Assembly: GCF_014279795.1 (NCBI RefSeq)
Contig: NZ_CP047945.1
Span: forward strand, 2,252,572-2,316,571
Source: Synechococcus sp. PROS-7-1
Lineage (GTDB): Bacteria; Cyanobacteriota; Cyanobacteriia; PCC-6307; Cyanobiaceae
Direction: 5' to 3'
Length of the DNA stretch: 64,000 nt
In this document: one piece after another, positions 5,609 through 59,827 of the stretch
Numbering within the stretch: position 1 is the stretch's first letter
Layout of the letters: every line of letters begins with the position of its first letter
Made by a program: the position numbers and the translations under genes
Notes under the pieces: model-generated
What the model saw: the letters and a program-made list of their open reading frames with translations, nothing else
Database searches by the model: none
Told to the model about the DNA's origin: nothing

Positions 5609-5634
5609 GATCCCGCCGACGCACCACCAAGCCA

Positions 5635-8620: not shown

Positions 8621-8653
8621 GACCTGATCGAATCTGGGCGGAATCTAAGTGGG

Positions 8654-9169: not shown

Positions 9170-9192
9170 CGCATCGATCACAACGTCACACC

Positions 9193-10371: not shown

Positions 10372-10459
10372 GCCACAGAACCAAGCGATTGCCGCCATTC
10401 ACAAAACCTGGAAAAATCCGTCAAAACGGCTACCTTTTGGGGAATTAATTAGTCAGTCC

Positions 10460-11490: not shown

Positions 11491-12405
11491 AGACTCTGAA
11501 CGCTTCCTAGCGATTCGCAGCTTGGCACTTCGGCTACGCGGGTTCTGCTCCTGTTCCTCTTCAGAGGCCACCAGCGGGCGACGCGTGATCCGTTCCAGCC
11601 GCTCATCCTGGAGAAATGCCGTTTTCACACGCCGGTCCTCAAGGGAGTGAAAGCTGATGATCGCCAGCAGACCTCCCGGCTGCAGCCAATCAGGGGCGGA
11701 GCTCAGGAGCTTCTCCAACACGCCCAGTTCGTCATTAACGGCGATGCGCAGGGCCTGAAACGTGCGGGTCGCAGGATGAATGCGCCCACGTCGGGCCTTG
11801 GGTGGATAGCAACCGGCGATCGCGTAAGCGAGGGCGGCGGTGCCTGCGTAGGCCCCCTGCGCTGCCAAATCCGCCTTGATCCGGCGGGCAATCCGGCGGG
11901 ATAGACGTTCCTCGCCGTAGGCATAGATCAGATCGGCCAGGTCGGACTCCTCTAACCGTTCGATCAGCTCCGCTGCCGTCTCACCCCCACCCTCCGGATT
12001 CATGCGCATGTCGAGGGGACCATCGAGGCGAAAGCTGAACCCCCGCGCTGCCACATCAAGCTGGGGACTGCTGACACCAAGATCCGCCAGAACCAGTGAT
12101 GCCGACTGAGGGGGGCTGTAATCGGCGAAATTGGTGGCCACGATGCTGACCCGCTCCTCCCAAGGGCGCAGACGCACGGCGGCCGCCGCTCTCGCGGTGG
12201 CGTCCTGGTCGAGCCCGATCATGCGCAAGTCGGGATAACGGTCCAGCAACAGACTGCTGTGCCCCCCACCGCCGAGCGTGGCATCCACAACCAGGCCAGA
12301 CTGCCAGTGATCACTGGGCTCCTGGTCCAACGCATTCAACAAAACATCGGCCAAGACCGGCACATGCCGAAACGTCGAATCGGTCGCAGGGAGCTGATCG
12401 GGCAT
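11488..12405 (-). CDS. rsmH: 16S rRNA (cytosine1402-N4)-methyltransferase
   Basis: RsmH (MraW) methylates the exocyclic amine of C1402 in 16S rRNA, tuning the ribosomal P site. The 305-residue protein begins with [15 protein letters not shown] and has the SAM motif [70 protein letters not shown], the substrate-side [16 protein letters not shown] and [13 protein letters not shown]. It is a typical full-length member. The gene is divergent from ndhH with 44 bases between start codons. Confidence 0.96.
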
Positions 12406-45515: not shown

Positions 45516-45705
45516 ACCAAAAGCACGGAGTGCAAACCCCCCATTTGGAGGATGGTGAATCACGGCCTTGCAGATCTGAATAGGTGAGCCAAAAGACCGC
45601 ATTCAGTCCGCATCAAAGTTGCTTCTGGTCACACAGAATTTGCAGCCCGTTGCATTTGCTGCATCCCTTCTCGCTGGACTGAAACGGTTGCCTGCCCTTC
45701 AACCC
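45516..45705. other. Spacer upstream of the CBM2 gene, no gene seen
   Basis: About 190 bases with no convincing coding frame or RNA gene. An in-frame TTG at 45619 would extend the following CBM2 protein by 29 residues (including VAFAASLLAGL, mildly hydrophobic). I consider this a possible but weaker start because neither it nor the ATG has a clear ribosome-binding site. Confidence 0.5.
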
Positions 45706-47289
45706 ATGGCTCCCTCCAACACGCTCCAGATCTCCGTCAATGGAGACCTCTGGTGGGGTGGTTTCACAGCCGAAATCACCGTGCGCAATGCCTCGGACCA
45801 GCCACTGGACAGCTGGAGTACGAGTTTCATCAGTGCCCATGATCTAGACCCTGAGGCCTGGGGGGTGGAAATCAACCGAGAACTCCTGGGGGAAGGCCTC
45901 AGCCTCTACACACTCACAGGAACCTCATGGGGACAGAGCATTCCCGCAGGAGGGGAACTCCGCGTGGGATTCAATGGCAGTCAGAGCGTCGACCTCGGCA
46001 GGAATGGCGCCTTGACCGAAGCCATGCTGATGGCTGAGAGGTCCATGGGCGAATCGGTGATGGCCGACGGAGGCGCACACACGGCTGAACACACCGCTGA
46101 ACACCCTGCTGAACACGCCGCGATGTCCCATGGCCACAACACCATGACTGGTCCCTACACCGACATCACCACCTGGGGTAGCTTCCACGGCTCGAACCAC
46201 AACTCCGAGCACAACGAACTGGTGGGGGGCCGCACGGCGATCACCACCGAAGCGATGGAGGCCTACAACGGCTTACGCGCCTTTGCTGGCCTTGAGTCGG
46301 TTGCGCTGGAGGATGTTGGTGCCTGGGCTTATGCCCAGGGTTTGACCAACAACGCGCAGGCCTGGGGCGATGACACCAAAGGCGTGGGCCTCTGGTATGC
46401 GATGCAAGCAGCCAAGGTGGGGTGGATCTCGGATGAGACCTACAACCCCCAGATCCTGGCTGACATCCAACGCACCGCCCGCCAAGGCGAGACCGATGCG
46501 GTGATGGCGATGGTGGAGACCTTCGGCCATGAAGGCTTCGCCAGCTATCTGCGCAGCAATGCGCTGGTGGACACCTTCACCAACACCCTGAAGATGGAGC
46601 CCCACTACGGCGGCTGGATGCACGGCCGCACCCATGGATTCCTCAGCATCGAAGGCGTGGCCATCAACCACGACATCAACCACCTGACGGTGCTGGGCTG
46701 GGATCAGCAGCAGCCCTTCATGAATGACACCTTCGACTACCCGCAGTGGCCTGCGTTGGAGGTGAGTGATGACACAGTCATCAACTACTTTCAGTCGATC
46801 GTGACGCTGGGAGACCCGCTCAGCAGTCAGCTGGAGACCCTGGGAGCACCGAGTGGGATTGGGCCAAACGAGACGCCACCTCTTGCGAGCACTCCATCTC
46901 CCTCCCCTGAGACGGAGTCCACAAACAACGATCCAATCACTGGTGAATCGCTGGCTGTGGAGATCAGCGGAGATCTCTGGTGGGGTGGCCTGACGGCCTC
47001 ACTGGCGGTGACCAACACTGGCGACCAAAAAACAGACAACTGGGGGCTGAACTTCATCAGTGCCCATCAATTCACCGGAGACAGCTGGGGCACAACGATC
47101 GAAACCGAGACACTGGCCGATGGTCTGTACCGCTACCAGCTCACGGGTGCCGACTGGGGACAGTCCATCGATGCTGGAGAAACCATCCGTGTGGGGTTCA
47201 ATGCGCGATCGGCTGACAGCGGCGAGAGCGAGGGTGCACTGACCACTGAAATCCTGCTGGCACTCAACAGCGAGCTGGTGGTGGTCTGA
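45706..47289 (+). CDS. Modular protein: CBM2, His-rich linker, unknown domain, CBM2
   Basis: A 527-residue protein with two family-2 carbohydrate-binding-like modules at its ends (residues ~4-105 and ~415-525). Both share GDLWWGGxTA, WxxxFISAH, LTGxxWGQSI and RVGFN. CBM2 modules bind crystalline cellulose or chitin through surface Trp. After module 1 comes a linker with repeated TAEH/PAEH and SHGH histidines. The ~230-residue middle domain is one I do not recognise (TTEAMEAYNGLRAFAGLESV, GGWMHGRTHGFLSIEGVAINHDINH, VLGWDQQQPF). A Pro/Ser-rich linker leads to module 2. No signal peptide is seen from the ATG; export is inferred. Confidence 0.82.
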   Translation: MAPSNTLQISVNGDLWWGGFTAEITVRNASDQPLDSWSTSFISAHDLDPEAWGVEINRELLGEGLSLYTLTGTSWGQSIPAGGELRVGFNGSQSVDLGRNGALTEAMLMAERSMGESVMADGGAHTAEHTAEHPAEHAAMSHGHNTMTGPYTDITTWGSFHGSNHNSEHNELVGGRTAITTEAMEAYNGLRAFAGLESVALEDVGAWAYAQGLTNNAQAWGDDTKGVGLWYAMQAAKVGWISDETYNPQILADIQRTARQGETDAVMAMVETFGHEGFASYLRSNALVDTFTNTLKMEPHYGGWMHGRTHGFLSIEGVAINHDINHLTVLGWDQQQPFMNDTFDYPQWPALEVSDDTVINYFQSIVTLGDPLSSQLETLGAPSGIGPNETPPLASTPSPSPETESTNNDPITGESLAVEISGDLWWGGLTASLAVTNTGDQKTDNWGLNFISAHQFTGDSWGTTIETETLADGLYRYQLTGADWGQSIDAGETIRVGFNARSADSGESEGALTTEILLALNSELVVV

Positions 47290-47305
47290 GCCCAGGAGCG
47301 GACAT

Positions 47306-47338
47306 GGGGACACGGTTATGGACTTGACTGGTGTCCCC
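47306..47338. repeat. Inverted repeat GGGGACAC/GTGTCCCC between two accessory genes
   Basis: Perfect 8-base arms at 47306-47313 and 47331-47338 flank a 17-base centre. It sits 16 bases after the CBM2-protein stop and 15 before the next ATG. There is no T-run after it on either strand, so a simple terminator is unlikely. An operator or an mRNA hairpin covering the ribosome-binding site of the GluR0-like gene is possible. Confidence 0.45.
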
Positions 47339-47352
47339 TGTGCGAGAGCGTC

Positions 47353-48465
47353 ATGCATCCCATGCTCAGCCGGAGTGTCCGTCTGACGATTGGGGCACTT
47401 TGCAGCGTCCTGCTGACAGCTGAGTGCATCCAGATCAGTCAGGCCCAAGACCTCACTGTCGAGGACACCGATCCGGTGGATGTGATCTGGTTCCCGAACC
47501 CTCCCTACGCAATGAACGAGAAGGGGATCCCCGCAGGCTTTGAAATCGATCTGTGGCGGATGATTGCGGAAAGTCGGCAGATCCCCTACCGCATCCGCAA
47601 AGCCGACAGTTTTGAAGATCTCCTCGCCGCGATCAGCAGCAACCAGGCCGACTTGGCGATCTCAGGCGTGCTGATTAATGAAAACCGCAGCAAGGCCTTT
47701 CGGTTTTCCTTTCCCACGGCCAGCAGTGATTTAAAGATCTACACCGTCAACAGCGAGGAACCAACAGCCGTCAAATTACTTCGGGTTTTGTTTTCCAGGG
47801 AAGTGCTGCTGATTTTCCTGGGATTGATTCTGATTGCCTGCATCTTTGCTCTGCCCGTTTGGATGATGGAGCGTCACCGACCAGACCTGGCCGACAAGCA
47901 GAAGCGCCATCAATTGGTGCTCATTCTTCAGAAAACTTTGCTGCTCTCCACAGACCATACAAAACGCACGAAAACTCGCTTGATTTCAATCGGCTCACTG
48001 TTTGCCAGGGTTTTATTAACAGCCTATTTTGCTTCTTACATCCTTAAAGTGGCCAGCAGCGAACAACTCTCTAAAAAACAAAATATGATCGAGGAGATTA
48101 ACTTTGAAACCCTCAAAGACACAACATTTGCTGCGATTCCAGGCTATATCCAGACATCCATCTTGAAAAGCAACGGCGCCAAAACCATTGCATGCGATGT
48201 TGCAGAAACATGCATTCAACTGCTCAAAACAGGGCAAGCCGATGCCATCCTCGACGACATGCTGACCATGCAAACAACCTTGCCCTTGATGCAGGGAGCG
48301 AAAGTATCCGCTGCTTCAGAGAAACTCATGACCCTGTTCATGGCCTTTGCAATCTCCAAAGACTTCAGCAAAGATCAACGCTCACTCGCCATCAACGATG
48401 CAATCGCCAGGAGCTATTACGACGGCTCTCACGCCAAGCTGAGCAGGATTTGGCTGCGGCCATGA
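47353..48465 (+). CDS. GluR0-like periplasmic-binding membrane protein without K+ filter
   Basis: A 370-residue protein with the layout of bacterial ionotropic-glutamate-receptor-like channels. It has a signal helix (LTIGALCSVLLTAECI), then ligand lobe S1 (VIWFPNPPYAMNEKGIPAGFEIDLWRMIA, DLAISGVLINENRSKAFRFSFP). Helix M1 (VLLIFLGLILIACIFALPVWMME) is followed by a short loop, helix M2 (SLFARVLLTAYFASYILKVAS) and lobe S2 (FAAIPGYIQTS, GQADAILDDMLTM). Where GluR0 channels have a P-loop with TVGYGD, this protein has LILQKTLLLSTDHTK. It may be a receptor or sensor rather than a channel, or carry an altered pore. Confidence 0.8.
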   Translation: MHPMLSRSVRLTIGALCSVLLTAECIQISQAQDLTVEDTDPVDVIWFPNPPYAMNEKGIPAGFEIDLWRMIAESRQIPYRIRKADSFEDLLAAISSNQADLAISGVLINENRSKAFRFSFPTASSDLKIYTVNSEEPTAVKLLRVLFSREVLLIFLGLILIACIFALPVWMMERHRPDLADKQKRHQLVLILQKTLLLSTDHTKRTKTRLISIGSLFARVLLTAYFASYILKVASSEQLSKKQNMIEEINFETLKDTTFAAIPGYIQTSILKSNGAKTIACDVAETCIQLLKTGQADAILDDMLTMQTTLPLMQGAKVSAASEKLMTLFMAFAISKDFSKDQRSLAINDAIARSYYDGSHAKLSRIWLRP

Positions 48466-48503
48466 GCATTAGCCACTCTTGGTCAAAATTTGACCTTGCC
48501 GCT

Positions 48504-49496
48504 TTACGTAATCGAGGAACGCCGCCTCAGCACCGCCAGCAGTTTGTCCATCACTGGTGGCAGCGGCGCTTCAAACAGCATCCGTTCCCTTGTGATCGGG
48601 TGATCCAGCCCCAGCTGAAACGCATGTAGAGCCTGTCCAGGCAGCTCGATGGGCAATTTGCGGCAACGGCTGTAGGTGGGGTCCCCCACCACCGGATGGT
48701 TCATATGCGCGCAATGCACGCGGATCTGATGGGTGCGGCCCGTATCGAGCTTGAAGCGCAGCAACGAGTAATCACCGAGTCGCTCCTGCAAGCTCCAGTG
48801 GGTGCAAGCAAAACGACCGCTCTCGCTGCTCACCACCGCATATTTCTTGCGATCCACCGGGTGGCGGCCGATGGCCCCCACGATCGTGCCGCTGTCTCCT
48901 GACGGCACCCCATGCACCACCGCGAGGTACTCCCGTGAGGCAATGCGCTTTTGGATCTGCAGCTGCAGCTTCACCAGTGCCTCCTGGGATTTGGCGATCA
49001 CGATGCAGCCGGTGGTGTCTTTGTCCAGACGGTGCACGATTCCCGGCCTGAGCTTGCCACTGATCCCCGGTAGATCCGGGCAGTGATGCAACAGACCGTT
49101 CACCAGGGTTCCATCCTTGTTACCAGGGGCTGGGTGCACGGTGAGGCCAGCGGGCTTGTTGATCACAATCAAGTGCTCATCTTCGAAAAGCACATCCAGA
49201 TCCATGGCCTCAGGCTTCAGGTAGGGCAGCGGCTCAGGTGGGGGCATCCAGAGCTGCACCTCATCGCCCTGACGCAGGGGGGTCTTCGCTTTACCCGTTC
49301 GACCATTCACACGCACCAAACCCGCATCAATGAATTTCTGAATTCGGGCGCGACTCTGTTCGCGACGCTGGCTCACAAGCCAGCGGTCAAGCCGCATGGG
49401 CAAAGGCTTGGGGTAAGTCAGGCTGAGCAACTCTCCCTGGCCTTCACCAAAAGCCTTGTCAAACGAGAGTTCAGGAAGAGGGGGATGGTCTGGCAA
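48504..49496 (-). CDS. rluD: 23S rRNA pseudouridine synthase, RluD type
   Basis: A 330-residue RluA-family enzyme with an N-terminal S4 domain (MRLDRWLVSQRREQSRARIQKFIDAGLVRVNG), DEHLIVINKPAGLTVHPAPG, the catalytic HRLDKDTTGCIVIAKS with the Asp present, REYLAVVHG, RFKLDTGRTHQIRVHCAHMNHPVVGDPTY and a C-terminal strand. RluD modifies helix 69 of 23S rRNA. Its 5' end overlaps the 3' end of the MFS gene by 26 bases, on the same strand. It is a useful contrast to the HRLG variant at 6966-7910. Confidence 0.92.
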   Translation of the reverse strand: MPDHPPLPELSFDKAFGEGQGELLSLTYPKPLPMRLDRWLVSQRREQSRARIQKFIDAGLVRVNGRTGKAKTPLRQGDEVQLWMPPPEPLPYLKPEAMDLDVLFEDEHLIVINKPAGLTVHPAPGNKDGTLVNGLLHHCPDLPGISGKLRPGIVHRLDKDTTGCIVIAKSQEALVKLQLQIQKRIASREYLAVVHGVPSGDSGTIVGAIGRHPVDRKKYAVVSSESGRFACTHWSLQERLGDYSLLRFKLDTGRTHQIRVHCAHMNHPVVGDPTYSRCRKLPIELPGQALHAFQLGLDHPITRERMLFEAPLPPVMDKLLAVLRRRSSIT

Positions 49497-50649
49497 TGGT
49501 CAGCCCAGAACACTGGGAAAGCATGGCCAGCAGAACCAGCCCTAAAGCCAGGTATAAAACACCGTGCCATCCCCAGATGGGCCAAAGTCTCACCAAAAGA
49601 AGACCGCTGAGAGCCGCAGCCCCGAACGCAGAGATGAAGAGCAAGGCACCGAGCCTTGATCGTGCTGCCAGATCAAGCGACAACACCCGCGACTGATTCG
49701 CGACGTAACTTCCCTGCACTCCAAAGTCGATACAACACATTGAGACAAGAATCGCCACAACGGATGTATCCCAAACAATCAGACCGATCACACCCAGCAA
49801 GGTCATCCCACTACACCCTGTGATCACCTGACGGGCGCCGAATCGATCCACCATGCGACCAACCCAGGCTGCGGATGTGATGCTGGCCAGGCCAACAAGA
49901 CCGAAAGCACCAATCTGGGCTGGGCCGAACGACCAGGGGGGATTCGCCAAACGCAATGAAAGCCCTGTCCAGACAACAATAAAAGCAGCGAATTGAAAGC
50001 CTTGGCTGGCACAGGCTTGCCTGAGAACATCAAAACGCCGAAACAATGAGAACTGACGACTGATCACGAGTCCATAGGGCTTGTTCACACTCTCGGTGTC
50101 AGGCGGAATCAAACGAGGCCACAAGAGAGCGACTCCACCCATCAGAACTGCAGACACCAAATAAATGCTCCGCCAGCCAAACCAATGCGCCATCAGTCCA
50201 CTAAAGAAACGGGACAAGAGGATGCCTGCAAACTGACCACTGAGCAATCTGCCGATCACAAACCCTCGCTCATGAGGGCCAACCAGACCGGAAACAAAAG
50301 CGGGGAGAATATACGAGCTTAACGAACAAAAACCCAAACTATAAAAAGCAACAAGAAGTAGCGAGAAGTCTCCTGACAAGACAATTGAAAAGGCCGACAG
50401 CGATGCCCCACAAGCAATCAAGCGAAGCATTTTACGGCGATCAAGAAGATCCCCAGCCGGCAACAGGAACACAAGAGAGGTCAACAACCCCGCCTGCAGC
50501 ATCACCGGCACGACCCCAACACGACCAGACGGCAAGTCAAATGCTGAAGAAATGACAGGTAACAGGGACTGGGAATAGAACATGTTGCCGATGCTCACTC
50601 CCATCACCGCCCCTAGAATCGTCAAGGGAAATTTCTGGCTCGCACGCAT
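49471..50649 (-). CDS. MFS transporter, drug/metabolite efflux type
   Basis: A 392-residue major facilitator with about twelve hydrophobic segments (FPLTILGAVMGVSIGNMFYSQ, LLLVAFYSLGFCSLSSYILPA, WRSIYLVSAVLMGGVALLW, RLGALLFISAFGAAALSGLLL, VLYLALGLVLLAMLSQ). It has the motif-A-type PAGDLLDRRKMLRLIACG between helices 2 and 3. The pattern is that of small 12-TM efflux permeases (AraJ-like). It is the left border of the accessory cluster and starts head-to-head with the MmgE/PrpD gene; the ATGs overlap by two bases. Export of the cluster product is inferred. Confidence 0.85.
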   Translation of the reverse strand: MRASQKFPLTILGAVMGVSIGNMFYSQSLLPVISSAFDLPSGRVGVVPVMLQAGLLTSLVFLLPAGDLLDRRKMLRLIACGASLSAFSIVLSGDFSLLLVAFYSLGFCSLSSYILPAFVSGLVGPHERGFVIGRLLSGQFAGILLSRFFSGLMAHWFGWRSIYLVSAVLMGGVALLWPRLIPPDTESVNKPYGLVISRQFSLFRRFDVLRQACASQGFQFAAFIVVWTGLSLRLANPPWSFGPAQIGAFGLVGLASITSAAWVGRMVDRFGARQVITGCSGMTLLGVIGLIVWDTSVVAILVSMCCIDFGVQGSYVANQSRVLSLDLAARSRLGALLFISAFGAAALSGLLLVRLWPIWGWHGVLYLALGLVLLAMLSQCSGLTIARPSPSS

Positions 50650-52045
50650 GTCTACAGTCCCCAGTTCACAGCCTGGTCATAGCACGAATAAAAGCAATGA
50701 CTGGCGTGAATGGGGAACAGAAGCGACCTCACTAAGCCAGGCAATCAATACACAGTGGAAGCACGATCAAACACCTGAGAAGCAATCAATCATTCAAGCA
50801 ACACGCCTCGTGTTACTCGACACATGTGCGGTCATCATCAATGGATTGTCCAGCGATCTCATTCAGGCGTACAGCGAGAACAATGCCAATCTCGAGCCAG
50901 GTCATCTGCACTTTCCTGGGATCCGACAAACACTGAGTATCCACGGCCTGATCAGCGTGCTGTCAGCAGCAGCTCCATGGAATGAATTGGTTGAAGGCAA
51001 TGCCAAGGCCCATGGCCGCCCCGCACTTCACGTGGTTCCAATCAGTATCGGGCTGGGCCTGAGTCTGAATTGCACGCTCGATGAGATCTTGCGGGCCATT
51101 CTTCAGGGCTATGAAATCGGCACCCGATTCGGTGAAGCGTATTCCGTACCCCCCGGGGAACACGTGGACGGCACATGGGGAACCATCGCAGCGACCGTGG
51201 CCGCATGCACACTTCTGAAGACAACACCGGAGCAAACCAGAGGCGCGATCAATGGCGCGCTCTGTCAGATGAGTCGAAGCCTGTTTGCACCTGTGGAGGC
51301 GGGAAGCGGTTCACGCTTGCTCTACTCCGGCTTGTCTGCCCTAACAGGGCTCCAGCTGGCCTTAGCCTCCAGGGCCGGATTGCACGGACCAGCCCGACCA
51401 GGGCGAACGTCAAGCGACCATCAACAACGCTGGCCATCGGCACCAGACCTCACGATCAGAGCGGAATTCGCGATTGAAGACAGCTATGTAAAGCTCTATC
51501 CAGGGGCACGCCACCTGCACTACGGCATGGAAGCTGCTCTGAATTGGCGCCTAAGCCACGGATATCACTCAGAACAGACCCTGAGACAACAAGACATCCC
51601 CAGCACAATCACAATTGAAACTTACCCTGAAGCAATCAACTATTGCGACCAAAGCGAACCGAGCAATCGCATACAGGCTCAGTTCAGCCTGCAATACGCA
51701 ACCTGCATTTGCCTACTGACAGGTGATACGAGTACAAACATCTTTAATCAGAGCTGGCTGCATCATCCAGTCGTGGCCATCCTCATGAGTCGAACCAAAC
51801 TCCTGGCCAACGATCATCAATCAGGACGCTGGGCTGTGCTGAATCTGACTGACCAACAAGGGAGGAGAAGTCGCGCCGAATGCAAATATCTGAAAGGGGA
51901 CCCAGGCTATCCTCTCAGCATCGATGACCGGATCACGAAAGCCAAACGCCTACTGGAAGATCATCTTGAAACACGATGTGCCGAACGATTAGTCAACCAT
52001 TGGCTTGAGGGAGACCTCAGCAATGGCCTACTACCCGAAGCATAA
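50648..52045 (+). CDS. MmgE/PrpD-family protein
   Basis: A 465-residue member of the MmgE/PrpD fold (2-methylcitrate dehydratase, cis-aconitate decarboxylase, iminodisuccinate epimerase). Typical features are RLVLLDTCAVIINGLSS near the N-terminus, NELVEGNAKAHGRPALHVVPISIGLGLSL (where family enzymes have N-x-x-H/D and H-P-S), ILQGYEIGTRFGEAY, HVDGTWGTIAATVAACTLLKTT and VKLYPGARHLHYGMEAALNW (usually K-x-Y-P-x-C-x-x-x-H). An N-terminal tail of about 35 polar residues is unusual. It is the only plus-strand gene in the cluster. Confidence 0.85.
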   Translation: MSTVPSSQPGHSTNKSNDWREWGTEATSLSQAINTQWKHDQTPEKQSIIQATRLVLLDTCAVIINGLSSDLIQAYSENNANLEPGHLHFPGIRQTLSIHGLISVLSAAAPWNELVEGNAKAHGRPALHVVPISIGLGLSLNCTLDEILRAILQGYEIGTRFGEAYSVPPGEHVDGTWGTIAATVAACTLLKTTPEQTRGAINGALCQMSRSLFAPVEAGSGSRLLYSGLSALTGLQLALASRAGLHGPARPGRTSSDHQQRWPSAPDLTIRAEFAIEDSYVKLYPGARHLHYGMEAALNWRLSHGYHSEQTLRQQDIPSTITIETYPEAINYCDQSEPSNRIQAQFSLQYATCICLLTGDTSTNIFNQSWLHHPVVAILMSRTKLLANDHQSGRWAVLNLTDQQGRRSRAECKYLKGDPGYPLSIDDRITKAKRLLEDHLETRCAERLVNHWLEGDLSNGLLPEA

Positions 52046-52058
52046 ATACAGAAAAAAG

Positions 52059-52847
52059 TTAGAAGGGATTGAACAGTGAATCAACTTCAGACCAGTCACT
52101 CATAGATGCAAAACGCTCGAGTTTCTCGTATAGCTTGCAAAACAAGACCGAACCACGAAGTCCACGATCACCACAATGAGATAGAAGCCAGCGAGCCGCT
52201 GCCAGATTGGAAGACAGCAACGGAGCAGGATAACGATCAATCAAGTCCTCGATCACCCCAACCGTACGCATCCCTGTTCCTGAAAGAAGAACAGGAGCGC
52301 CATCATGGAAGGTCAAAGATTGAAGATAATCCTCCAAAGCCTCAGAGTCAATCGCGTAAGCATCTTGTACCTGGAGTGCATCGAGAATCGAATTGGCAGC
52401 AACAACTTCAATGCCAGCTTGCTCCCAATAGCACTTCGCCTCATTGATGAGCCATTGCGGATAAGGAAGTTCAAGGTGAAGACGCTTGAATTGCAAATGA
52501 TGGAGTAATTCAAGGATGGCCAGACTGGTGGTCACAAATGGAACGTTCAGCCTCGCCGAGAGTTCGTCACAAAAACGCCTATCTTCTCCCGGTCCTGAAG
52601 CATAATTTGAACCGGTAAGACCAACAAGAATGGCAGACAGCGGTAGCTTGCCAAAGCGAAGCGAAGTATCCAGATACTCCTGAAGATAACGCCTGTTGCG
52701 TTCCGCTAGGTCACAATCAGGGAAGACAGGAAGCCTGGACACATAAAGATAAGGCTGATCATCCAAGAGCTGTTTGAGCTCGATTTCCAGCGTTGGATTG
52801 GAAGGAGGCACCAAAAGCCCAACAGAGTGCATTGATTCAAGAGTCAT
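52059..52847 (-). CDS. Asp/Glu racemase superfamily protein (maleate isomerase/arylmalonate decarboxylase-like) lacking both cysteines
   Basis: A 262-residue protein starting HSVGLLVPPSNPTLEIELKQLL, like the PSSNTTVE-type opening of maleate isomerases. The two motifs that normally hold the catalytic cysteines read ILVGLTGSNYASG and VLLSGTGMRTVGVIEDL. In family enzymes (CTSGS and SCxxLRTLDVI forms) Cys is expected, here Leu and Gly. The fold seems intact, so it may use another mechanism or bind without catalysis. Its ATG overlaps the FAD-monooxygenase stop (ATGA); it is last in the four-gene operon. Confidence 0.8.
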   Translation of the reverse strand: MTLESMHSVGLLVPPSNPTLEIELKQLLDDQPYLYVSRLPVFPDCDLAERNRRYLQEYLDTSLRFGKLPLSAILVGLTGSNYASGPGEDRRFCDELSARLNVPFVTTSLAILELLHHLQFKRLHLELPYPQWLINEAKCYWEQAGIEVVAANSILDALQVQDAYAIDSEALEDYLQSLTFHDGAPVLLSGTGMRTVGVIEDLIDRYPAPLLSSNLAAARWLLSHCGDRGLRGSVLFCKLYEKLERFASMSDWSEVDSLFNPF

Positions 52848-54010
52848 CGGCGCAAAGACTTTGAATACGAAAGTAGGTCAAGAAGTGAAGCACGCATCAG
52901 CGCCCCAAACGACTCACTAGAAGGCCTCAGGAAACGAGGGGTCCGTCCCGCCAGCAACTGCTGGGTGCGCGCCATCAAGGCATCTTGCGTCAAACGCGAC
53001 CAGGTCAGATTCCAATGCTGCAATGCTTGCCAATCAGGATGGTTCAAAAAACAGGATGCCAATGCATAGGCTTCCATTAATCCGAAATTCATATTCAAAC
53101 CTCCTCGGGTGTTGGTGACATGGGCCACATCACCCAAGAGAAACACCCTTTGAACTTGTCGGGTTTTCACACAACGCTGCGCAACGCGATAGGAGTCACG
53201 CATGGCCGGAATCGATTCCCACCACTGAGCCGGCACGCAATCCCTGAAGACACCGGCCAAACGTTGCCGTGCCCATGCAGTACCCGCTAGTGCCTGCCGC
53301 AGTTCAGATAAGCGAGGCCGCAGTACAAAACGCCAACCGTCGGTCATCTTGAGGCAGCTCACCGAACCACCTTCTGATTGGACATAAGACACCCCAGCCA
53401 ATTGCCCCTGCAGAGAGTCAGGAATCATTGGCACGGAAAGACGCACAACTGGGGTTGGCAAGTCATACCCCTCAAAACGAAGACCCAGCTGATCACGCAA
53501 CACACTGCGCGCTCCATCACAGAGAATCAGATAATCCCCTTGAAATGTCTGGCTCAAGCCACTTGATCCAAAGCGATTGACCCGTACAGACACGCCTTTG
53601 TTGCAACGATCAAACTGCAAGGCGACAGCATCTGCCTTGTCCACCAGACAACAACACCTGGAAGCTTGGAGTTCGGCGATCAACTCCGCGCGCAATGCAG
53701 CCTGATGTAAATGCAATCGGTAAGGGAATTGGGTCTGAGCCGAGAGCGCGTCATAGCTTGATCGTTGTTGAGTCGATCGTTCGAGATTCCAAGACATGAC
53801 GTCTGAGACAACCTCTCCCTGGGCCAAAAGCTCAGGCCAACAGGCAAATTCAGACAAGAGCTCAAGGGTGGCTGGCTGAAGCGTTGAGGCTCTCGAAAAT
53901 GTCTGATTGAAATCATGACGCTCAATCAAGACACACTCGTGCCCCTCCCGAGAGAGCTTGGCGCAGAACATAAGCCCAACCGGACCAGAGCCAACCACCA
54001 GGATTCGCAT
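52844..54010 (-). CDS. FAD-dependent aromatic-ring-type monooxygenase
   Basis: A 388-residue class A flavoprotein hydroxylase. It has the FAD-binding ILVVGSGPVGLMFCAKLSREGHECVLIERH at the N-terminus, an RASTLQPATLELL segment, the DG motif YLILCDGARSVLRDQLGL and the GD motif VFLLGDVAHVTNTRGGLNMNFGLMEAYALASC. The short C-terminus fits single-component PHBH/UbiH-type enzymes that hydroxylate activated rings. The ATG at 54010 overlaps the HemB-like stop (TGATG); a TTG at 54013 is one codon longer. A pyrrole or aromatic substrate is inference from context. Confidence 0.88.
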   Translation of the reverse strand: MRILVVGSGPVGLMFCAKLSREGHECVLIERHDFNQTFSRASTLQPATLELLSEFACWPELLAQGEVVSDVMSWNLERSTQQRSSYDALSAQTQFPYRLHLHQAALRAELIAELQASRCCCLVDKADAVALQFDRCNKGVSVRVNRFGSSGLSQTFQGDYLILCDGARSVLRDQLGLRFEGYDLPTPVVRLSVPMIPDSLQGQLAGVSYVQSEGGSVSCLKMTDGWRFVLRPRLSELRQALAGTAWARQRLAGVFRDCVPAQWWESIPAMRDSYRVAQRCVKTRQVQRVFLLGDVAHVTNTRGGLNMNFGLMEAYALASCFLNHPDWQALQHWNLTWSRLTQDALMARTQQLLAGRTPRFLRPSSESFGALMRASLLDLLSYSKSLRR

Positions 54011-54915
54011 CAATCAGAAACATGATGCAGGAAATTATCAGCTGCATAACCAATCACATAACGAGCCCCACAACGGGCGAACGCAGCATGGATCTCAGAA
54101 AAATAGGCTTGGGGATCCAACAAACCAGTCTTAGCTGCAGCCATCGCCATCGCATACTCACCACTCACGTGATAGACAGCCACCGGACGCCTTGAGCGAC
54201 GGCAAGCGTCCTGCAGGACATCGAGATAAGGCAACGCTGGTTTCACAATGGCGATCTCCGCTCCTTGCCTGAAGTCTTCATCCATTTGGTGAAGTGCCAT
54301 CTCTGCATCAGAGAAATCAAACTGATAACTTTTGCGCGCTAACCCCAGCGAGGAGCCGACCGTCGACCGATAAGGTCCATACAACGAAGAGGAAAACTTC
54401 GTGCTGTAAGGCATCAATCCACACACTAGATCTCTACTTCTCAAAGCAGCGGCCAACCGGGATGTCTGATCAGGCAATGAAAGACAAGGAGCCACATAAT
54501 GAGCGCCTGCGTCAGCGAATCGCAAAGCCAGACGAATCGCAGCCTGATAGGAGGCCTCCAGATCGACCAGACCCTCCTTCAATACAACACTGTGGCCAGA
54601 AGCGAGATAAGGAGACAATCCCACATCAGCGATCAACATGACCTGATTGCGCGCCCATCGCGCACTAACCTGTTCAAGGAAATGAGCCACGCAGAAATTC
54701 GGCTCATCAAGCTGATCCAAACCTGGTTGATCATTCACAGCTACAACCAACCAACGACTCAACCCCTGAGAAAGACGACGCTCAACATGAGCCAAGGCTG
54801 ATTCAACGCTATGAATCAGGTTTCTCTCAAGAGGCGACTCTCGAGGCTCCTGCGCTGCAGAAATGAATAGGCATTCGATGTAGTCCAACGGACGGGCCAA
54901 GAATCCCACCCCCAT
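54010..54915 (-). CDS. HemB (porphobilinogen synthase) paralogue
   Basis: A 301-residue protein clearly of the HemB fold but not a normal HemB (about 325-335). It keeps the Schiff-base lysine motifs LMPYSTKFSSSLYGPYRSTVGS and EIAIVKPALPYLDVLQDA, plus PVAVYHVSGEYAMAMAA and RYVIGYAADNFL. The metal loop reads DVGLSPYLASGHSVVL, lacking both the Zn cysteines and most Asp residues of the Mg form. The N-terminal arm used for octamer packing is shortened. It may condense a different aminoketone or work without metal. The ATG overlaps the P450 stop (TAATG). The true hemB should lie elsewhere in the genome. Confidence 0.87.
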   Translation of the reverse strand: MGVGFLARPLDYIECLFISAAQEPRESPLERNLIHSVESALAHVERRLSQGLSRWLVVAVNDQPGLDQLDEPNFCVAHFLEQVSARWARNQVMLIADVGLSPYLASGHSVVLKEGLVDLEASYQAAIRLALRFADAGAHYVAPCLSLPDQTSRLAAALRSRDLVCGLMPYSTKFSSSLYGPYRSTVGSSLGLARKSYQFDFSDAEMALHQMDEDFRQGAEIAIVKPALPYLDVLQDACRRSRRPVAVYHVSGEYAMAMAAAKTGLLDPQAYFSEIHAAFARCGARYVIGYAADNFLHHVSD

Positions 54916-56135
54916 TACACAGGCGAAGCCTTGAGCAAGAGTCGATCAAACCCTCGGAAACGGTCTGCAAGCAAACGTCGACTCTCACCTTCAACAATCT
55001 CAAGTGATTCAAAATGATCACAGAGTGCATTCAGGAAACATGCTCCTGCCATCCTCGCCAGGTGAAGGCCAAGGCACTGATGCAGACCAGGCGCAAAACT
55101 GAGATGGTGATTCGGATTCCGATCAATCAGGAACTGATCCGGATGTTCAAACACGCGAGGATCACGATTTGCGGCACTCACCAAAACAGAAACTGACTCA
55201 CCAGCCCGAATTATTTTTCCATCAATCTCCATATCCTCAAGAGCCGTACCGGCATTAATCGCCTGAGCGGGCGGGTCCCAGCGCAACACCTCTTCAAGCG
55301 CAGGTGCGACCAACTGACGATCAGCTCGAATTCGCGTATACACCTCCGGATGCAGAGACAGAGCCCAGGCGACTGTGCCAACCAGCAACCGAAGGGTATA
55401 AATACTTGCTGAATAGAAATTACTGCTGATCACCAACAGCAATTGCTCATCAGTGAGATGCATATTTTCCTGATGATCCGAAATCAAACGGCTCAGCAAG
55501 TCTGCAGAAAGATGCTGACGCTTTTCGCGAATCAATGGCAGGAAATACTCATTATAAAAGCCTATTGAATCATCACCTTCTTCCACAGTGGACTGCGTCT
55601 GTGTCAACCCGCGAGCACGCACAAAGGCACCCACCTTATGACAGACCATCTCCTGCTGCTCAGAAGGCACTCCCATCAGTTCGCTGACCACCATCACTGG
55701 CAGGGGGTTGGCAATCTCGCGAACGAGGTCAATCACTGGCTCACCAGCAATCGCCTGAAAGCGATCATGCAAAAATGCCTGGGTGAATGTTGCCAACAGT
55801 TGAAAATCTATACCCCGATAGGCCTGAGTAACATGATGTCTTAAACGGGCATGTTCACGTCCATCCATATAAGGCAAATCATTTTTCTGGCGTTCAAAAA
55901 TATGGCCATGGCCAAATCGGGCAATCAATTCATCAAGGTGACTCTGCCGGCTAAAGCGAGCATCCTTCATGTGGTCAACAGCCTCTTGATAAGCAACAAT
56001 CATCCACAAGTTCGGACCTTCACACCAATGAATGGCAGATTCTTCCCTTAAAGCCGCATAAACCCGATACGGATCATCCAGCCCCGGCAGACAAGGATCC
56101 TGCTTAAACCACTGAATAGCTTGCTGAAAATCCAC
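54915..56135 (-). CDS. Cytochrome P450 with atypical I-helix
   Basis: A 406-residue bacterial-type P450. It has HARLRHHVTQAYRG (C-helix), the ExxR motif in ALEEVLRWDPPAQ and the heme loop LSFAPGLHQCLGLHLARM with the thiolate Cys. The I-helix, normally AGxET/AGxDT for oxygen activation, reads LLLVISSNFYSASIYTLRLL, with no acid-alcohol pair. The chemistry may be unusual (peroxide-type, dehydration, rearrangement). The start is a GTG at 56133-56135. No ferredoxin or reductase gene is adjacent. It is first in the P450 > HemB-like > monooxygenase > isomerase-like operon. Confidence 0.9.
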   Translation of the reverse strand: MDFQQAIQWFKQDPCLPGLDDPYRVYAALREESAIHWCEGPNLWMIVAYQEAVDHMKDARFSRQSHLDELIARFGHGHIFERQKNDLPYMDGREHARLRHHVTQAYRGIDFQLLATFTQAFLHDRFQAIAGEPVIDLVREIANPLPVMVVSELMGVPSEQQEMVCHKVGAFVRARGLTQTQSTVEEGDDSIGFYNEYFLPLIREKRQHLSADLLSRLISDHQENMHLTDEQLLLVISSNFYSASIYTLRLLVGTVAWALSLHPEVYTRIRADRQLVAPALEEVLRWDPPAQAINAGTALEDMEIDGKIIRAGESVSVLVSAANRDPRVFEHPDQFLIDRNPNHHLSFAPGLHQCLGLHLARMAGACFLNALCDHFESLEIVEGESRRLLADRFRGFDRLLLKASPV

Positions 56136-56200
56136 CGAAGCGCATCATTTCCCACACTCAAGCAATGGATTCCAAACCCGGCAACATCAGATGGCAAACA

Positions 56201-56229
56201 ATAAGATAACTTTTTTATTGTAAAATCAA
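56201..56229 (-). promoter_or_regulatory. Candidate promoter of the P450 operon
   Basis: The 110-base spacer between the rbgA stop and the P450 start is strongly AT-rich. On the minus strand TTGATT (56224-56229) and TCTTAT (56201-56206) are 17 bases apart, a -35/-10-like pair matching four of six bases each. The predicted transcript would start about 60 bases before the GTG. This is a pattern match only. Confidence 0.3.
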
Positions 56230-56246
56230 CTGGCGTTGACAACGGC

Positions 56247-57116
56247 TCAATCAAACGGCAGTTCCAGCGCGATGCTGCCTAAAGCAGATTTTCGGAAATC
56301 ATCGAGCAATCGCTGGGCCATCCGCGCTGTATCCCCTGAGGTGTGGCGCTCCGCCACAGCCTCCAGCCAGTAGGCAGGATCTTCGGTGGCCCCTTCCAGA
56401 GGAACGCCATAACGACTCTCCAGGAGCGCCAAGCCCACGCCTGAGGCCTCCTGCGGCTGCAATCCCTTCAGGAGATTCAGAAACGCCTGGGCCACGAGCT
56501 CACCGTCGTAAGCCGCTTGGCCGATGTCGTCGCACAACGCCAGATGCAGTGCTGCCTGCTGGTCATCCAGCCGCGGCGGCAGCACCCCGGGCGCATCAAG
56601 CAGATCAAGATCCTGCCCCAAACGCACCCAACGCAACGTGCGCGTGACACCGGCACGCCGGGCACTGGCCACCACCTTCTGCTTCACCAAGCGGTTGATC
56701 AAGGCCGATTTGCCCACATTGGGGAACCCCAGAGTGAGCGCCCGCACCGGACGTGGACGCATGCCGCGGTTACGCCGCCGCTCATTGAGCTGATCGCCGG
56801 CGCGGATCGCTGCCTGCTGCACCTGCTTCACACCGGTGCCCGCTTTGGCATCGCACCACACCGTGCGCTGGCCGCGGGCTTTGAACCACGCTTCCCAAGC
56901 AAGGCGTGCAGCGGGGGTGACCATGTCACGCCGGTTGATCACCAGGAGATGCTGCTTGCCGCTGATCCAACGATTGAGATGGGGGTGCCCCGTCGCCAGG
57001 GGAATGCGCGCGTCGCGCACTTCGATCACCAGGTCCACCTTGTCGAGATTGCGCTTGAGCTGCTGCTCCGCTTTGGCGATATGGCCCGGATACCACTGAA
57101 TCGGCGGTGAGCTCAC
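56247..57116 (-). CDS. rbgA: Ribosome biogenesis GTPase, RbgA/YlqF type
   Basis: A 289-residue circularly permuted GTPase needed for late 50S assembly. The motif order is G4 first (LLVINRRDMV, with Arg for Lys), then G1 LTLGFPNVGKSALINRLVKQK, the G2-type threonine in AGVTRTLRWV and G3 LLDAPGVLPPRLDD, with the YlqF opening IQWYPGHIAKAEQQL. The start is the GTG at 57116, since the longer frame has no homology; this GTG overlaps the upstream universal-stress-protein stop. It forms the right border of the accessory cluster. Confidence 0.92.
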   Translation of the reverse strand: MSSPPIQWYPGHIAKAEQQLKRNLDKVDLVIEVRDARIPLATGHPHLNRWISGKQHLLVINRRDMVTPAARLAWEAWFKARGQRTVWCDAKAGTGVKQVQQAAIRAGDQLNERRRNRGMRPRPVRALTLGFPNVGKSALINRLVKQKVVASARRAGVTRTLRWVRLGQDLDLLDAPGVLPPRLDDQQAALHLALCDDIGQAAYDGELVAQAFLNLLKGLQPQEASGVGLALLESRYGVPLEGATEDPAYWLEAVAERHTSGDTARMAQRLLDDFRKSALGSIALELPFD

Positions 57117-57496
57117 GGCACCACCAACACTGGGCAGGGGGCCAACTGAATCACCCGCGACGCCGTACTGCCGCTTTCGGCTTGCAAATTCACACCCCGC
57201 GTTCCCATCACGATCACATCCACATTCAACTCGTCGGCCACATCGCAAATCACAAACGCCGGCTTGCCCTCGCGCTCCACCACATCGCACGCCACCCCCG
57301 CCTGTTCAAAACGGGTTCTGGCCTCAGCCAACAAAGTGGCTACCGCCTGATGGTCGTGCATCTCCGGCCGCTCGGGCTGCACCACCGACAGCACCACCAG
57401 CCGGCTGTTATGACTGCGCGCCAGCTCAAGGGCCTTCCCGGCAGTCTCCACAGCCTCCCGGCTCTGATCGATCGGGAACAGAACGGTTTCAAACAT
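57113..57496 (-). CDS. Universal stress protein (UspA family)
   Basis: A 127-residue UspA-fold protein: METVLFPID-type start ([20 protein letters not shown]), a long central helix region and the C-terminal nucleotide motif [34 protein letters not shown] (G-x2-G-x9-G(S/T) type, here somewhat altered). It probably binds ATP or AMP and acts in stress tolerance. It is first in a short operon with rbgA (four-base overlap). It lies divergent from pgk with a 100-base spacer. Confidence 0.88.
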
Positions 57497-57596
57497 CGCG
57501 ACGGCCTCCAGCAGACAGCGCTTCCTTAGTCCTAGCGCCAAGAGCCGGGAACTCGGGTTAACCTCACCCCGTTTTCCTACCGCACGACACAACCCC

Positions 57597-58805
57597 ATGG
57601 CGAAGCGTTCCCTGGCAAGCCTTTCCGGCACCGACCTCAGCGGAAAGCGTGTGCTTGTGCGGGTTGATTTCAACGTGCCCCTGAACGATGCCGGTGCGAT
57701 CACCGACGACACCCGCATCCGCGCAGCCCTGCCCACGATCAACGACCTGATCAGCAAAGGCGCCAAGGTGATCCTCTCAGCTCACTTCGGCCGTCCCAAG
57801 GGTCAGGTGAACGACGCCATGCGTCTCACCCCTGTGGCCGCCCGTTTGAGCGAGCTGCTGGGTAAGTCCGTGGCCAAGACCGACAGCTGCATCGGCCCTG
57901 ACGCTGAAGCCAAGGTGGGCGCCATGGCCGATGGCGATGTGGTGCTGCTGGAGAACGTGCGCTTCTTTGCCGAGGAAGAGAAGAACGAAGCCGGCTTCGC
58001 TGAAAAGCTCGCCGGCCTGGCTGAGGTGTACGTGAACGACGCCTTCGGCGCCGCCCACCGCGCCCACGCCTCCACTGAGGGCGTGACCAAGTTCCTCAAG
58101 CCCGCCGTCGCTGGCTTCCTGATGGAGAAGGAGCTTCAGTACCTCCAAGGCGCCGTGGATGAGCCCAAGCGTCCCCTCGCCGCCATCGTCGGTGGATCCA
58201 AGGTGAGTTCCAAGATTGGCGTGCTCGAGGCCCTGATCGACAAGTGCGACAAGGTGCTGATCGGCGGCGGCATGATCTTCACCTTCTACAAGGCCCGCGG
58301 CCTCTCGGTGGGCAAGAGCCTGGTGGAAGAGGACAAGCTGGAACTGGCCAAGGAGCTAGAAGCCAAGGCCAAGGCCAAGGGCGTTGAGCTGCTGCTGCCC
58401 ACCGATGTGGTGCTGGCCGACAACTTCGCCCCCGATGCCAACAGCCAGGTGGCTGATGTCACCGCCATCCCCGACGGCTGGATGGGTCTGGACATCGGTC
58501 CCGATGCGGTGAAGGTGTTCCAGGCCGCCCTGGCCGATTGTCAGACCGTGATCTGGAACGGCCCCATGGGCGTGTTCGAATTCGAGAAGTTCGCCACCGG
58601 CACCAACGCCATCGCCACCACCCTGGCGGAGCTCAGCGCCAAGGGCTGCTGCACGATCATCGGCGGTGGTGACTCGGTGGCTGCTGTGGAGAAGGCCGGT
58701 CTGGCCGAGAAGATGTCCCACATCTCCACCGGTGGCGGCGCCAGCCTCGAACTGCTGGAAGGCAAGGTGCTGCCCGGCGTGGCCGCCCTCAACGACGCTG
58801 CCTGA
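57597..58805 (+). CDS. pgk: Phosphoglycerate kinase
   Basis: Pgk interconverts 3-phosphoglycerate and 1,3-bisphosphoglycerate in the Calvin cycle and glycolysis. The 402-residue enzyme shows [115 protein letters not shown] and [13 protein letters not shown]. Codon use is strongly biased to C/G-ending codons, as expected for a highly expressed gene. A clear terminator follows. Confidence 0.98.
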
Positions 58806-58828
58806 TTCGCGAACAAACTCATGCTGTG

Positions 58829-58854
58829 GCCGCCCCTGATGGGGCGGCTTTTTT
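58829..58854 (+). terminator. Intrinsic terminator after pgk
   Basis: A perfect 8-base GC-rich stem (GCCGCCCC at 58829-58836 and GGGGCGGC at 58841-58848) with a TGAT loop is followed by six T at 58849-58854. It lies 23 bases after the pgk stop. This is a textbook rho-independent terminator. Confidence 0.92.
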
Positions 58855-58918
58855 GATGGGTTGCACTGTGAACCGGGTGGGCCGGTTCGCCAGGATCTAA
58901 CTGAGATGGGAGTGAACC

Positions 58919-59827
58919 ATGACCGGATCTGATCTCAAAGCTCCCAGTCGACTCGCCTTCGTCGGCCTCGGCGCCCTTGGCCTACCGATGGCCGCCAACC
59001 TGCACCGTGCCGGCTATTCACTGCAGGTGCACACCCGCAGCCGCAACGCCGAGAACGATCCGAGCCTGCATCAAGGGGATCCAGCCGCAGCGACCCTCTG
59101 CTGCGCATCCCCCGCTGATGCTGTTCAGGGCTGCCAGGCACTGATGCTCTGCGTCAGTGATGACGACGCCGTGGAGACTGTGCTCTGGGGAGAAAACGGT
59201 GCCGGGCCTGCACTCGTGGAGGGGAGCCTGGTGATCGACTGCTCCACCATCAGCCCATCCACATCCCAGCGAATGGCACAACGCCTGGCCAAACGAGGCG
59301 TGAGCTATCTGGACACCCCCGTCACGGGAGGAACGGAAGGAGCCAAAGCCGGCACACTCACCGTGCTCTGTGGCGGCAGCGACGCCGACCTGGATCGCGC
59401 CATGCCAGTGCTGGAGACGATCGGTGGCTCGATTCACCACTTCGGTGCTGTTGGCAGCGGCCAACAGGTGAAAGCGGTGAACCAGGTGCTGGTGGCCGGC
59501 AGCTATGCCGCCGTAGCGGAAGCCATCGCCCTCGGGCAGCACCTGCAGCTGCCAATGCAGCAGGTGGTGGATGCTCTCCGGCACGGCGCCGCCGGATCCT
59601 GGGCCCTCGAGCACCGATCCAGCGCCATGCTCAGCGATCACTATCCCCTCGGCTTCAAGCTGGCGCTGCATCACAAAGATCTGGGCATCGCTCTTCAAGC
59701 CGCCGCCGAGGCCGGCCTTGACCTGCCAATCACCCAGGCTGTGCAGGCTCAGGAACAGACCCTGATGGACGCAGGCCTGGGCAACGCTGATGTTTCAGCT
59801 CTGCGCAGACATCTGCCCAGGGTGTGA
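58919..59827 (+). CDS. NAD(P)-dependent beta-hydroxyacid dehydrogenase family oxidoreductase
   Basis: A 302-residue enzyme of the 3-hydroxyisobutyrate dehydrogenase/glyoxylate (tartronate semialdehyde) reductase family. It has the Rossmann motif [35 protein letters not shown], substrate-binding [24 protein letters not shown] and the catalytic lysine in [16 protein letters not shown], with [18 protein letters not shown] later. The glyoxylate-reductase role would fit photorespiratory metabolism but is not proven. An ATG at 58919 follows GGGAGTGAACC. The convergent secreted unknown ends two bases away. Confidence 0.88.

Follow-up and report, generated by a model that had tools for sequence, protein, structure and literature searches.

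Six genes lie between the core genes rluD and rbgA in the stretch of Synechococcus sp. PROS-7-1 DNA analysed here (the window, 64,000 nt). The ORF list places them at the positions given in a preliminary description of this DNA, and a Pfam search of the six proteins returned MFS_1, the N and C domains of MmgE_PrpD, Amdase, FAD_binding_3, ALAD and p450 (Table 1). The stop/start overlaps described earlier (TAATG, TGATG and ATGA) are present in the sequence, TAATG being the P450/HemBL overlap. The PrpD gene probably starts at 50648, not at 50582, since the first in-frame start of the orthologue from genome G256 is the equivalent Met; with this start the head-to-head MFS and PrpD genes do have overlapping ATGs, as had been described, in the form CATG, and the same overlap is found in three other loci (L014, L026 and L027). 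The FMO start is probably ATG 54010 and not TTG 54013. No consensus sigma-70 site was found in the gap between rbgA and the P450 gene, promoter and terminator scans gave nothing better than shuffled sequences, and an Rfam scan of positions 47000-59000 yielded no match.

Table 1. Genes and features of the rluD-rbgA interval (positions in the window)
Feature	Coordinates	Strand	Remark
Cytochrome P450 (406 aa, GTG start)	54915..56135	-	First gene of the operon
HemBL, HemB/PBGS-like (301 aa)	54010..54915	-	
FMO, class A FAD monooxygenase-like	52844..54010	-	ATG 54010; ORF opens at TTG 54013
AMD, AMDase/maleate isomerase-like (262 aa)	52059..52847	-	
PrpD, MmgE/PrpD-family protein	50648..52045	+	ORF opens at 50582; likely start 50648
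MFS transporter (392 aa)	49471..50649	-	Start codon overlaps that of PrpD, head to head
AT-rich 111-bp gap, rbgA to P450	56136..56246	-	Presumed site of the operon promoter
rluD, RluA/RluD-type pseudouridine synthase	48504..49496	-	Core flank; one arm of the recombination tract
rbgA/ylqF (YlqF/RbgA)	56247..57110	-	Core flank; other arm of the recombination tract

Two family searches, which share listing and tallies and apparently used one and the same draw of 400 Cyanobiaceae genomes, found AMD and HemBL in an identical set of 13. Inside these carriers, where FMO, PrpD and MFS were scored, FMO and PrpD accompany AMD and HemBL in 13/13, so that the conserved neighbourhood proposed earlier does recur; the cluster P450 is found in 12/13 and the MFS gene in 11/13 (the contig of G203 ends before MFS, and the locus of G051 is disrupted). 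In both G163 and G632 the cluster is spread across two contigs. Pieces shorter than 60% of the query were skipped, namely the FMO of G632/L096 and G163/L124, the P450 of G051, the SBP in the window and the Pgk of G678; the P450 of G236 was left out of the P450 sequences. Locus L025 of G678 is possibly mis-binned (canonical HemB 91% vs RbgA 98%); it is kept in the count of 13, the strict count being 12. Gene order is constant wherever it is readable, at rluD-rbgA and elsewhere, at identities down to 38-64%. Because of this co-occurrence and synteny the six genes are a real unit, well beyond chance, and the idea of a single accessory functional unit that includes an MFS transporter is supported.

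The carriers are scattered marine and freshwater picocyanobacteria, for which we use the labels marine-type and freshwater-type, taken from record titles and from recall. The rluD gene directly adjoins rbgA in 27 of the 30 genus loci read; G225, from another species, has a decayed copy at this site, with the P450 and MFS genes open and the rest lost. No AMD relatives were found in viral contigs. Among plasmids 659 records matched HemBL, all at <60% identity (the best 31.7% over 97%), and the best 20 of the 659 are mostly annotated hemB or unannotated. A HemBL profile run against 386 genomes of the phylum gave matches in 218; among the matches listed, only that in G000 reached 572 bits, the next best having 184 bits. 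Beyond cyanobacteria the scan comprised two AMD peptide patterns, and as far as searched the cluster appears peculiar to Cyanobiaceae. The matches listed for open-licence PubMed Central literature included no description of it.

In comparison with G231, dS is 0.041-0.051 across the six genes, against 0.249 for rbgA and 0.296 for pgk. A tract of 95-99% identity extends from ∼48.75 to 56.75 kb and starts and ends within the flanking genes. This contrast and this tract support horizontal movement: the block moves whole, and it has recently been exchanged by recombination. Of the earlier proposal of horizontal acquisition, the movement is supported; recent arrival from outside is not required. The block of G632 is a mosaic. 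Values of dN/dS are 0.06-0.34 (two comparisons per gene, with dS saturated in the G256 comparisons). In all six gene trees, a fully supported split sets the same five marine-type rows apart from the others. Since these trees resemble host-marker trees at clade level, the cluster looks old in Cyanobiaceae, often lost and recently re-spread by recombination in the marine-type group.

The low GC content noted earlier is real for the block in the window (51.9% vs 62.1% in the remainder), and the three marine-type loci measured have 50-52%. It is not a general trait: six freshwater-type loci have 61-69%, within ∼3 points of their surroundings. Low GC as a general proof of foreign origin was rejected on this ground.

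The model of HemBL has the PBGS fold (TM 0.85), with pLDDT <50 at residues 100-107 and 174-201, both part of the active site. The Schiff-base lysines Lys173 and Lys225 (K205 and K260 in Pseudomonas aeruginosa) are present in 13/13 HemBLs, as are the equivalents of R215, Q233, S286, Y324 and D127; position 229 is Arg, a residue that 11 of the 29 other HemBs from cyanobacteria have there too, this set being made of top scorers of the phylum search and so leaning to HemBL-like HemBs. A supposed loss of A-site carboxylate residues was rejected, the alignment showing them kept. The metal/amine aspartates are replaced in all 13 by Ser101 and Ser109 (D131S, D139S), and S175C, D179P and R181Q are fixed in all 13 as well. 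By contrast, in all of the 44 ordinary cyanobacterial HemBs compared, positions 131 and 139 are Asp or Cys, position 175 is Ser and position 179 is Asp. In PBGS, D131, D139 and S175 have roles towards the substrate amines. According to the titles of PDB entries, a zinc site has been built at PBGS positions 129, 131 and 139, and D139N has been studied with 5-fluorolevulinate.

HemBL scores 191 bits against the PBGS NCBIfam equivalog, below the cut-off of 297, and an ordinary hemB is present in 15/15 genomes examined, including all 13 carriers. With serines in place of the metal/amine aspartates, it is improbable that HemBL serves as a spare PBGS. The earlier suggestion that it condenses aminoketones is plausible; condensation of two ALA molecules exactly as in PBGS is unlikely, because the lysines and carboxylate clamps are kept and the metal/amine aspartates are not. 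A metal-independent PBGS is known from Rhodobacter capsulatus, as PMC535902 indicates, and loss of metal ligands alone is therefore no proof of a new reaction. The block has no ALA-producing or ALA-activating gene.

AMD scores 40.7 bits with Pfam Amdase (cut-off 25.9), and in the PDB its model fits maleate isomerase Iso (Pseudomonas putida S16) best. The catalytic Cys site is Gly190 (LLSGTGM, with no Cys) in 9/9 proteins; upstream of it, position 77 retains Cys in 6/9 and is Leu in the window. The earlier term ‘Cys-less’ fits the catalytic positions and fails for the protein overall, which has other cysteines, C93 being invariant (9/9). PrpD has both MmgE/PrpD domains and scores 16.9 bits against the equivalog, far below the cut-off of 458. 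It has Arg146 at the position of IRG1 His103 (10/10), a residue called the most important one in PMC7347537.

The P450 retains the haem ligand Cys354 and the ExxR motif E282-x-x-R285, both invariant (10/10). Its I-helix reads A243-S244-x-[YF]246-T247, with the acid of the usual motif AGx[DE]T changed to Tyr/Phe246 and Thr247 kept (10/10; register read by eye from three HMMER alignments). Judged from the alignments, HemBL, AMD and PrpD thus each lack residues that define catalysis in their families, and the P450 is without the usual I-helix acid. The FAD motifs GxGxxG, DG and GD of FMO are present as GSGPVG, DGARS and GDxAH (by eye; the fragment from L028 is without the N-terminal motif). P450s of this subfamily, 53-57% identical, occur elsewhere in Cyanobiaceae; at the seven such loci read, an EF-hand protein stands beside four, a related MFS protein beside three and neither in two. 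The loci with EF-hand and/or MFS share the I-helix in the two translations read and differ in having no adjoining match to HemBL, FMO, AMD or PrpD. As the P450 and MFS genes occur without the other enzymes there and in G225, their function may be separable. Whether genes of the block are scattered in unrelated contexts thus has two answers: AMD and HemBL, which share the 13 carriers among the 400 genomes searched, are not; the P450 and MFS partly are.

The interpretation that we consider somewhat better than an even bet is a self-contained small-molecule cluster in which HemBL would form the scaffold, the other enzymes would tailor it and the MFS protein would export it; reaction order, product and export are inferred, and the substrates are guesses from residues. 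HemBL, as the likely scaffold former, would apply PBGS-type double Schiff-base chemistry to two 4-oxo-acids held by the carboxylate clamps, an ALA-like keto acid and an unusual partner. At least one substrate, on the A side, would probably be without the free amino group of ALA; if so, the product would not be porphobilinogen and would not feed into tetrapyrroles. P450 and FMO would then oxidise it, AMD and PrpD would probably modify its carboxylate side chains (by decarboxylation, dehydration or isomerisation), and the MFS protein would export it. Repeated loss combined with homologous recombination in flanking core genes would explain the patchy persistence, often at rluD-rbgA. The narrower proposal, that a PBGS-fold enzyme stripped of its metal/amine site has been repurposed to make a non-tetrapyrrole scaffold from an ALA-type keto acid and a partner lacking the 5-amino group, is put forward tentatively, with the odds slightly against it.

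Catabolism or detoxification is an unlikely alternative: the MFS protein would import an N-heterocycle or a product of tetrapyrrole breakdown, which P450 and FMO would hydroxylate, AMD and PrpD would process the resulting dicarboxylate and HemBL would run in the retro-aldol direction. Degradation of N-heterocycles repeatedly involves FMO and maleate-isomerase-like folds, the match of AMD to Iso points the same way, and classical scaffold genes, PKS and NRPS included, are absent from the block. Neither a ring-cleaving dioxygenase nor a regulator nor a path into central metabolism can be recognised in the block, however, and the maleate isomerase Cys is missing from all nine AMD proteins; catabolic genes often travel on plasmids, where HemBL was not seen (all 659 records being distant matches). 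Somewhat less probable is a pair of fused modules, with tailoring and efflux by P450 and MFS as the functional core and the four other enzymes as an add-on that changes the product. The related P450s elsewhere with their EF-hand (4/7) and MFS (3/7) neighbours, and the retention of just these two open genes in G225, would agree with it; against it, the four enzymes always occur with the P450 or its traces in the 13 carriers, P450 and HemBL share the TAATG overlap in the window, and two of the seven P450 loci have neither neighbour.

We regard as improbable, a shade more so than the fused modules, that the cluster makes an alaremycin-like inhibitor of PBGS and that HemBL is the resistant PBGS copy of the producer. 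Biosynthetic clusters commonly carry a self-resistance copy of the target enzyme, and the title of PDB 2woq indicates binding of an alaremycin-type compound to PBGS. Yet the metal/amine aspartates are missing from all 13 HemBLs, as is the S-D-M-M-D-G-R segment, a score of 191 vs 297 bits makes a working spare PBGS unlikely, and the translational overlap of HemBL within the enzyme operon fits a biosynthetic role better. That unrelated accessory genes merely gathered at a recombination hot spot is very improbable: exchange clearly does take place at rluD-rbgA and the block of G632 is mosaic, but the order is kept at this site and elsewhere, down to 38-64% identity, and AMD and HemBL are present in the same 13 genomes; on both points we count this explanation as already refuted.

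If the proposal of a repurposed PBGS-fold enzyme is true, it opens a class of clusters that detection based on core genes for PKS, NRPS, terpene or RiPP products would be expected to miss. A transporter-linked cluster that is both conserved and mobile and has a changed HemB at its base would represent a new type of pathway and would show that the PBGS active site is adaptable to other condensations; HemBL and AMD offer specific sequences with which further clusters of this kind can be sought.

Among known systems, PBGS (HemB/ALAD) shares with HemBL the TIM barrel, the pair of lysines that form Schiff bases, and the Arg/Lys(Arg)/Gln and Ser/Tyr residues that bind carboxylate; it differs in the SDMMDGR segment, which is CLSLPxQ in HemBL. 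Compared with the host's own HemB, the N-terminal arm of HemBL is ∼18 residues shorter (by eye). AMD resembles arylmalonate decarboxylase and maleate cis-trans isomerase in fold and sequence family, and its Gly190 stands in place of C194 of the Nocardia isomerase and C188 of AMDase. Cis-aconitate decarboxylase (IRG1), IDS epimerase and 2-methylcitrate dehydratase share both MmgE/PrpD domains with PrpD; the equivalent of IRG1 His159 is kept as His194, and position 207, Lys in mouse IRG1, is Arg245 (alignment numbered by hand). The tolyporphin cluster BGC-1 of HT-58-2, as described in PMC10459692, likewise combines an accessory cyanobacterial hemB with genes for P450 and FAD proteins, but it carries hemA, hemL, hemC, hemE and two hemF genes for a full tetrapyrrole, whereas hemC/E/F-type genes are absent from the six genes and three flanking proteins scanned here, and hemA and hemL from the six cluster genes.

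Between rluD and rbgA, this Cyanobiaceae host, whose 2.565-Mb genome is a single contig, carries six ORFs. Downstream of rbgA, and like it on the minus strand, the genes for a P450, a HemB-like protein (HemBL), a class A FAD monooxygenase-like protein (FMO) and an AMDase/maleate isomerase-like protein (AMD) follow one another in that order; the stop/start overlaps between them (TAATG, TGATG and ATGA) are borne out by the sequence, as is the head-to-head exporter/PrpD pair that the preliminary description had also reported. After AMD comes the MmgE/PrpD-family gene (PrpD) on the plus strand and then MFS on the minus strand, with their likely ATGs overlapping as CATG, which is also seen in three loci from the comparison (L014, L026 and L027). 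If both genes do start there, each promoter would have to lie inside the coding sequence of the other. All six proteins score above the Pfam cut-offs and none reaches the curated threshold of an NCBIfam family among the matches listed (for FMO, the best 25 of 65); thus, they are recognisable by fold family and match no known equivalog.

The six genes are a unit. A first search of 300 genomes found AMD relatives at 50–99% identity in eight other genomes, along with two weak matches (22–23%) to other AMDase-like proteins. In a larger draw of 400 Cyanobiaceae genomes AMD (E-value up to 1e-20) and HemBL (up to 1e-60) were each present in 13, the same 13 in both cases. Counted within these carriers, FMO and PrpD occur in 13 of 13 loci read, P450 in 12 and MFS in 11. 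The P450 exception, Cyanobium sp. Morenito 9A2 (G051), retains only pieces near a contig end, and MFS was not found at its cluster locus; in G203 the contig ends before MFS. By eye, G051 also carries an IS transposase-like ORF beside the cluster, on the side away from the broken P450. The cluster is split over two contigs in G163 and G632, and gene order and orientation are constant wherever neighbours are readable. Co-occurrence and constant order confirm and strengthen the six-gene block proposed from the sequence. Among the matches listed in the open-licence PubMed Central literature searched, none describes this cluster.

Two AMD peptide patterns, which would miss divergent relatives, were run against 84,980 species genomes and yielded 12 loci: 11 cyanobacterial and one from Brevibacterium (38% identity), whose neighbourhood is unrelated to the cluster. 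The Brevibacterium protein has similar CTGSxY and SGTGM motifs; by eye, its gene lies downstream of a large relaxase-like ORF and upstream of homocitrate-synthase-, LysX-, ArgC- and ArgB-type genes, possibly a different biosynthetic cluster with the same fold.

Coordinates of features in the window and in the compared loci
Feature	Locus	Position	Remarks
Long ORF	window	45619-47289	two similar WWGGxTA...SFISAH segments and His-rich linker
Solute-binding protein	window	47353-48465	next to rluD; SBP_bac_3 and sub-threshold Lig_chan-Glu_bd match (Pfam)
MFS/PrpD start overlap	window	50648-50649	CATG
IS transposase-like ORF	L020 (G051)	5634-6773	
AMD relative	L036 (Brevibacterium)	8932-9720	
Remnant at rluD-rbgA site	L155 (G225)	8600-11600	
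Second 3' pgk fragment	L151 (G246)	C1:2178423-2178623	

Both rluD and rbgA flank the cluster on one contig in five genomes, that of the window (G000) and G231, G678, G256 and G069, and on two separate contigs in G632; in the other seven carriers the cluster is elsewhere or its neighbours are not readable. Searching 31 genus genomes for rbgA (one gave a weak match only) left 30 loci to read, of which three hold the cluster and 27 have rluD adjoining rbgA. The closest relatives lacking the cluster are G204 and G246, with RbgA 98% identical to that of the window; a second 3' pgk fragment ∼5 kb past pgk in G246 is a possible trace of integration or duplication. Beside rluD in the window, the solute-binding protein has its extracellular domain split by apparent membrane segments and is possibly a prokaryotic glutamate-receptor-like channel. 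The long ORF, which has a 1023-aa relative in L014, looks by eye like a carbohydrate-binding or surface protein.

Horizontal acquisition, suggested in the preliminary description, holds in the sense of block exchange. Relative to G231, dS (Nei–Gojobori, purpose-written script) is 0.041–0.051 in each of the six genes versus 0.249 in rbgA and 0.296 in pgk, and sliding identity holds at 95–99% between a point in rluD (∼48.75 kb) and one in rbgA (∼56.75 kb), falling thereafter; the whole block was therefore recently exchanged through its core-gene flanks. G632, a MAG, which is a caveat here, appears mosaic (L026 and L096), with P450 and the start of HemBL drawn from a divergent allele (64–70% DNA identity) and the remainder 82–94% identical to the window. 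At the same site G225 carries a decayed cluster: P450 (66%) and MFS (62%) are open, HemBL is an N-terminal scrap, PrpD is in scraps, and FMO and AMD are absent.

A single recent import is disfavoured. All six protein trees (midpoint-rooted; G051 left out for P450, G203 and G051 for MFS) set the same five rows, here labelled marine-type, apart with full support (G000, G231, G678, G632 and G256). The canonical HemB tree has the same split; G069 and G051 lie closer to the marine-type rows in the Pgk tree. Divergence is much faster in the cluster proteins than in HemB and Pgk: between the window and freshwater-type members, identity is 38–64% for the former and 83–87% for the latter. The low GC noted for the block is confined, among nine loci measured, to the marine-type group. 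Trees, divergence, the G225 remnant and the common rluD–rbgA site together favour an old cluster, repeatedly lost and locally exchanged. The P450 profile (E-value up to 1e-20) matched 32 of 400 Cyanobiaceae genomes, comprising cluster P450s, distant weaker ones and a subfamily carried by eight genomes (G051, G142, G108, G069, G189, G062, G218 and G236, the last cut short). Seven of the subfamily loci were read, and a broken copy besides (L156–L163 together). At the seven, the P450 is 53–57% identical to that of the window; an EF-hand protein of ∼200 aa lies beside it in four, a related MFS in three and neither in two, while the broken copy, in G195 (L163), has both. The P450–MFS pair may be the older core.

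Several of the enzymes have changed catalytic residues. In AMD, Gly stands in for the catalytic Cys in 9/9. PrpD has Arg at the positions of IRG1 His103 and Lys207 and keeps His159 (for the roles of the two histidines, see PMC7347537). The P450 retains the haem Cys and ExxR, with A-S-x-[YF]-T replacing A-G-x-[DE]-T in the I-helix (register by eye), and FMO looks ordinary.

The housekeeping enzyme is not HemBL, since every carrier has an ordinary hemB as well. The HemBL model aligns over its length with porphobilinogen synthase (PBGS) structures and, in P. aeruginosa numbering, all 13 sequences keep D127, K205, R215, Q233, K260, S286 and Y324, with Arg at 229. Replacements D131S, D139S, S175C, D176L, D179P, R181Q and E245Q are likewise fixed in 13/13. 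In ordinary HemBs (15 Cyanobiaceae and 29 other cyanobacterial) 131 and 139 are always Asp or Cys, 175 Ser, 179 Asp and 245 Glu, with one exception each at D176 and R181. Titles of P. aeruginosa PBGS structures place an engineered zinc site at 129, 131 and 139; we take D139 and D131 also to handle the amino group of the A-side substrate. The small-molecule pathway proposed earlier is partly supported, in that the make-up of the unit, its conservation, its decay and its exchange are established; its chemistry and transport direction we infer: HemBL would build a scaffold from two 4-oxo-acids via lysine Schiff bases, P450 and FMO would oxidise it, AMD and PrpD would act on its carboxylate arms and MFS would export the product. 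R. capsulatus PBGS works without metal (PMC535902), so that loss of metal ligands alone is no proof of a new reaction; the combined residue loss in the HemBL sequences argues for one. Relative to PBGS, HemBL has both carboxylate clamps intact and the amine/metal side not, for which the simplest fit would be a P-side molecule like 5-aminolevulinate (ALA), the normal substrate, paired with an A-side partner that lacks the 5-amino group.
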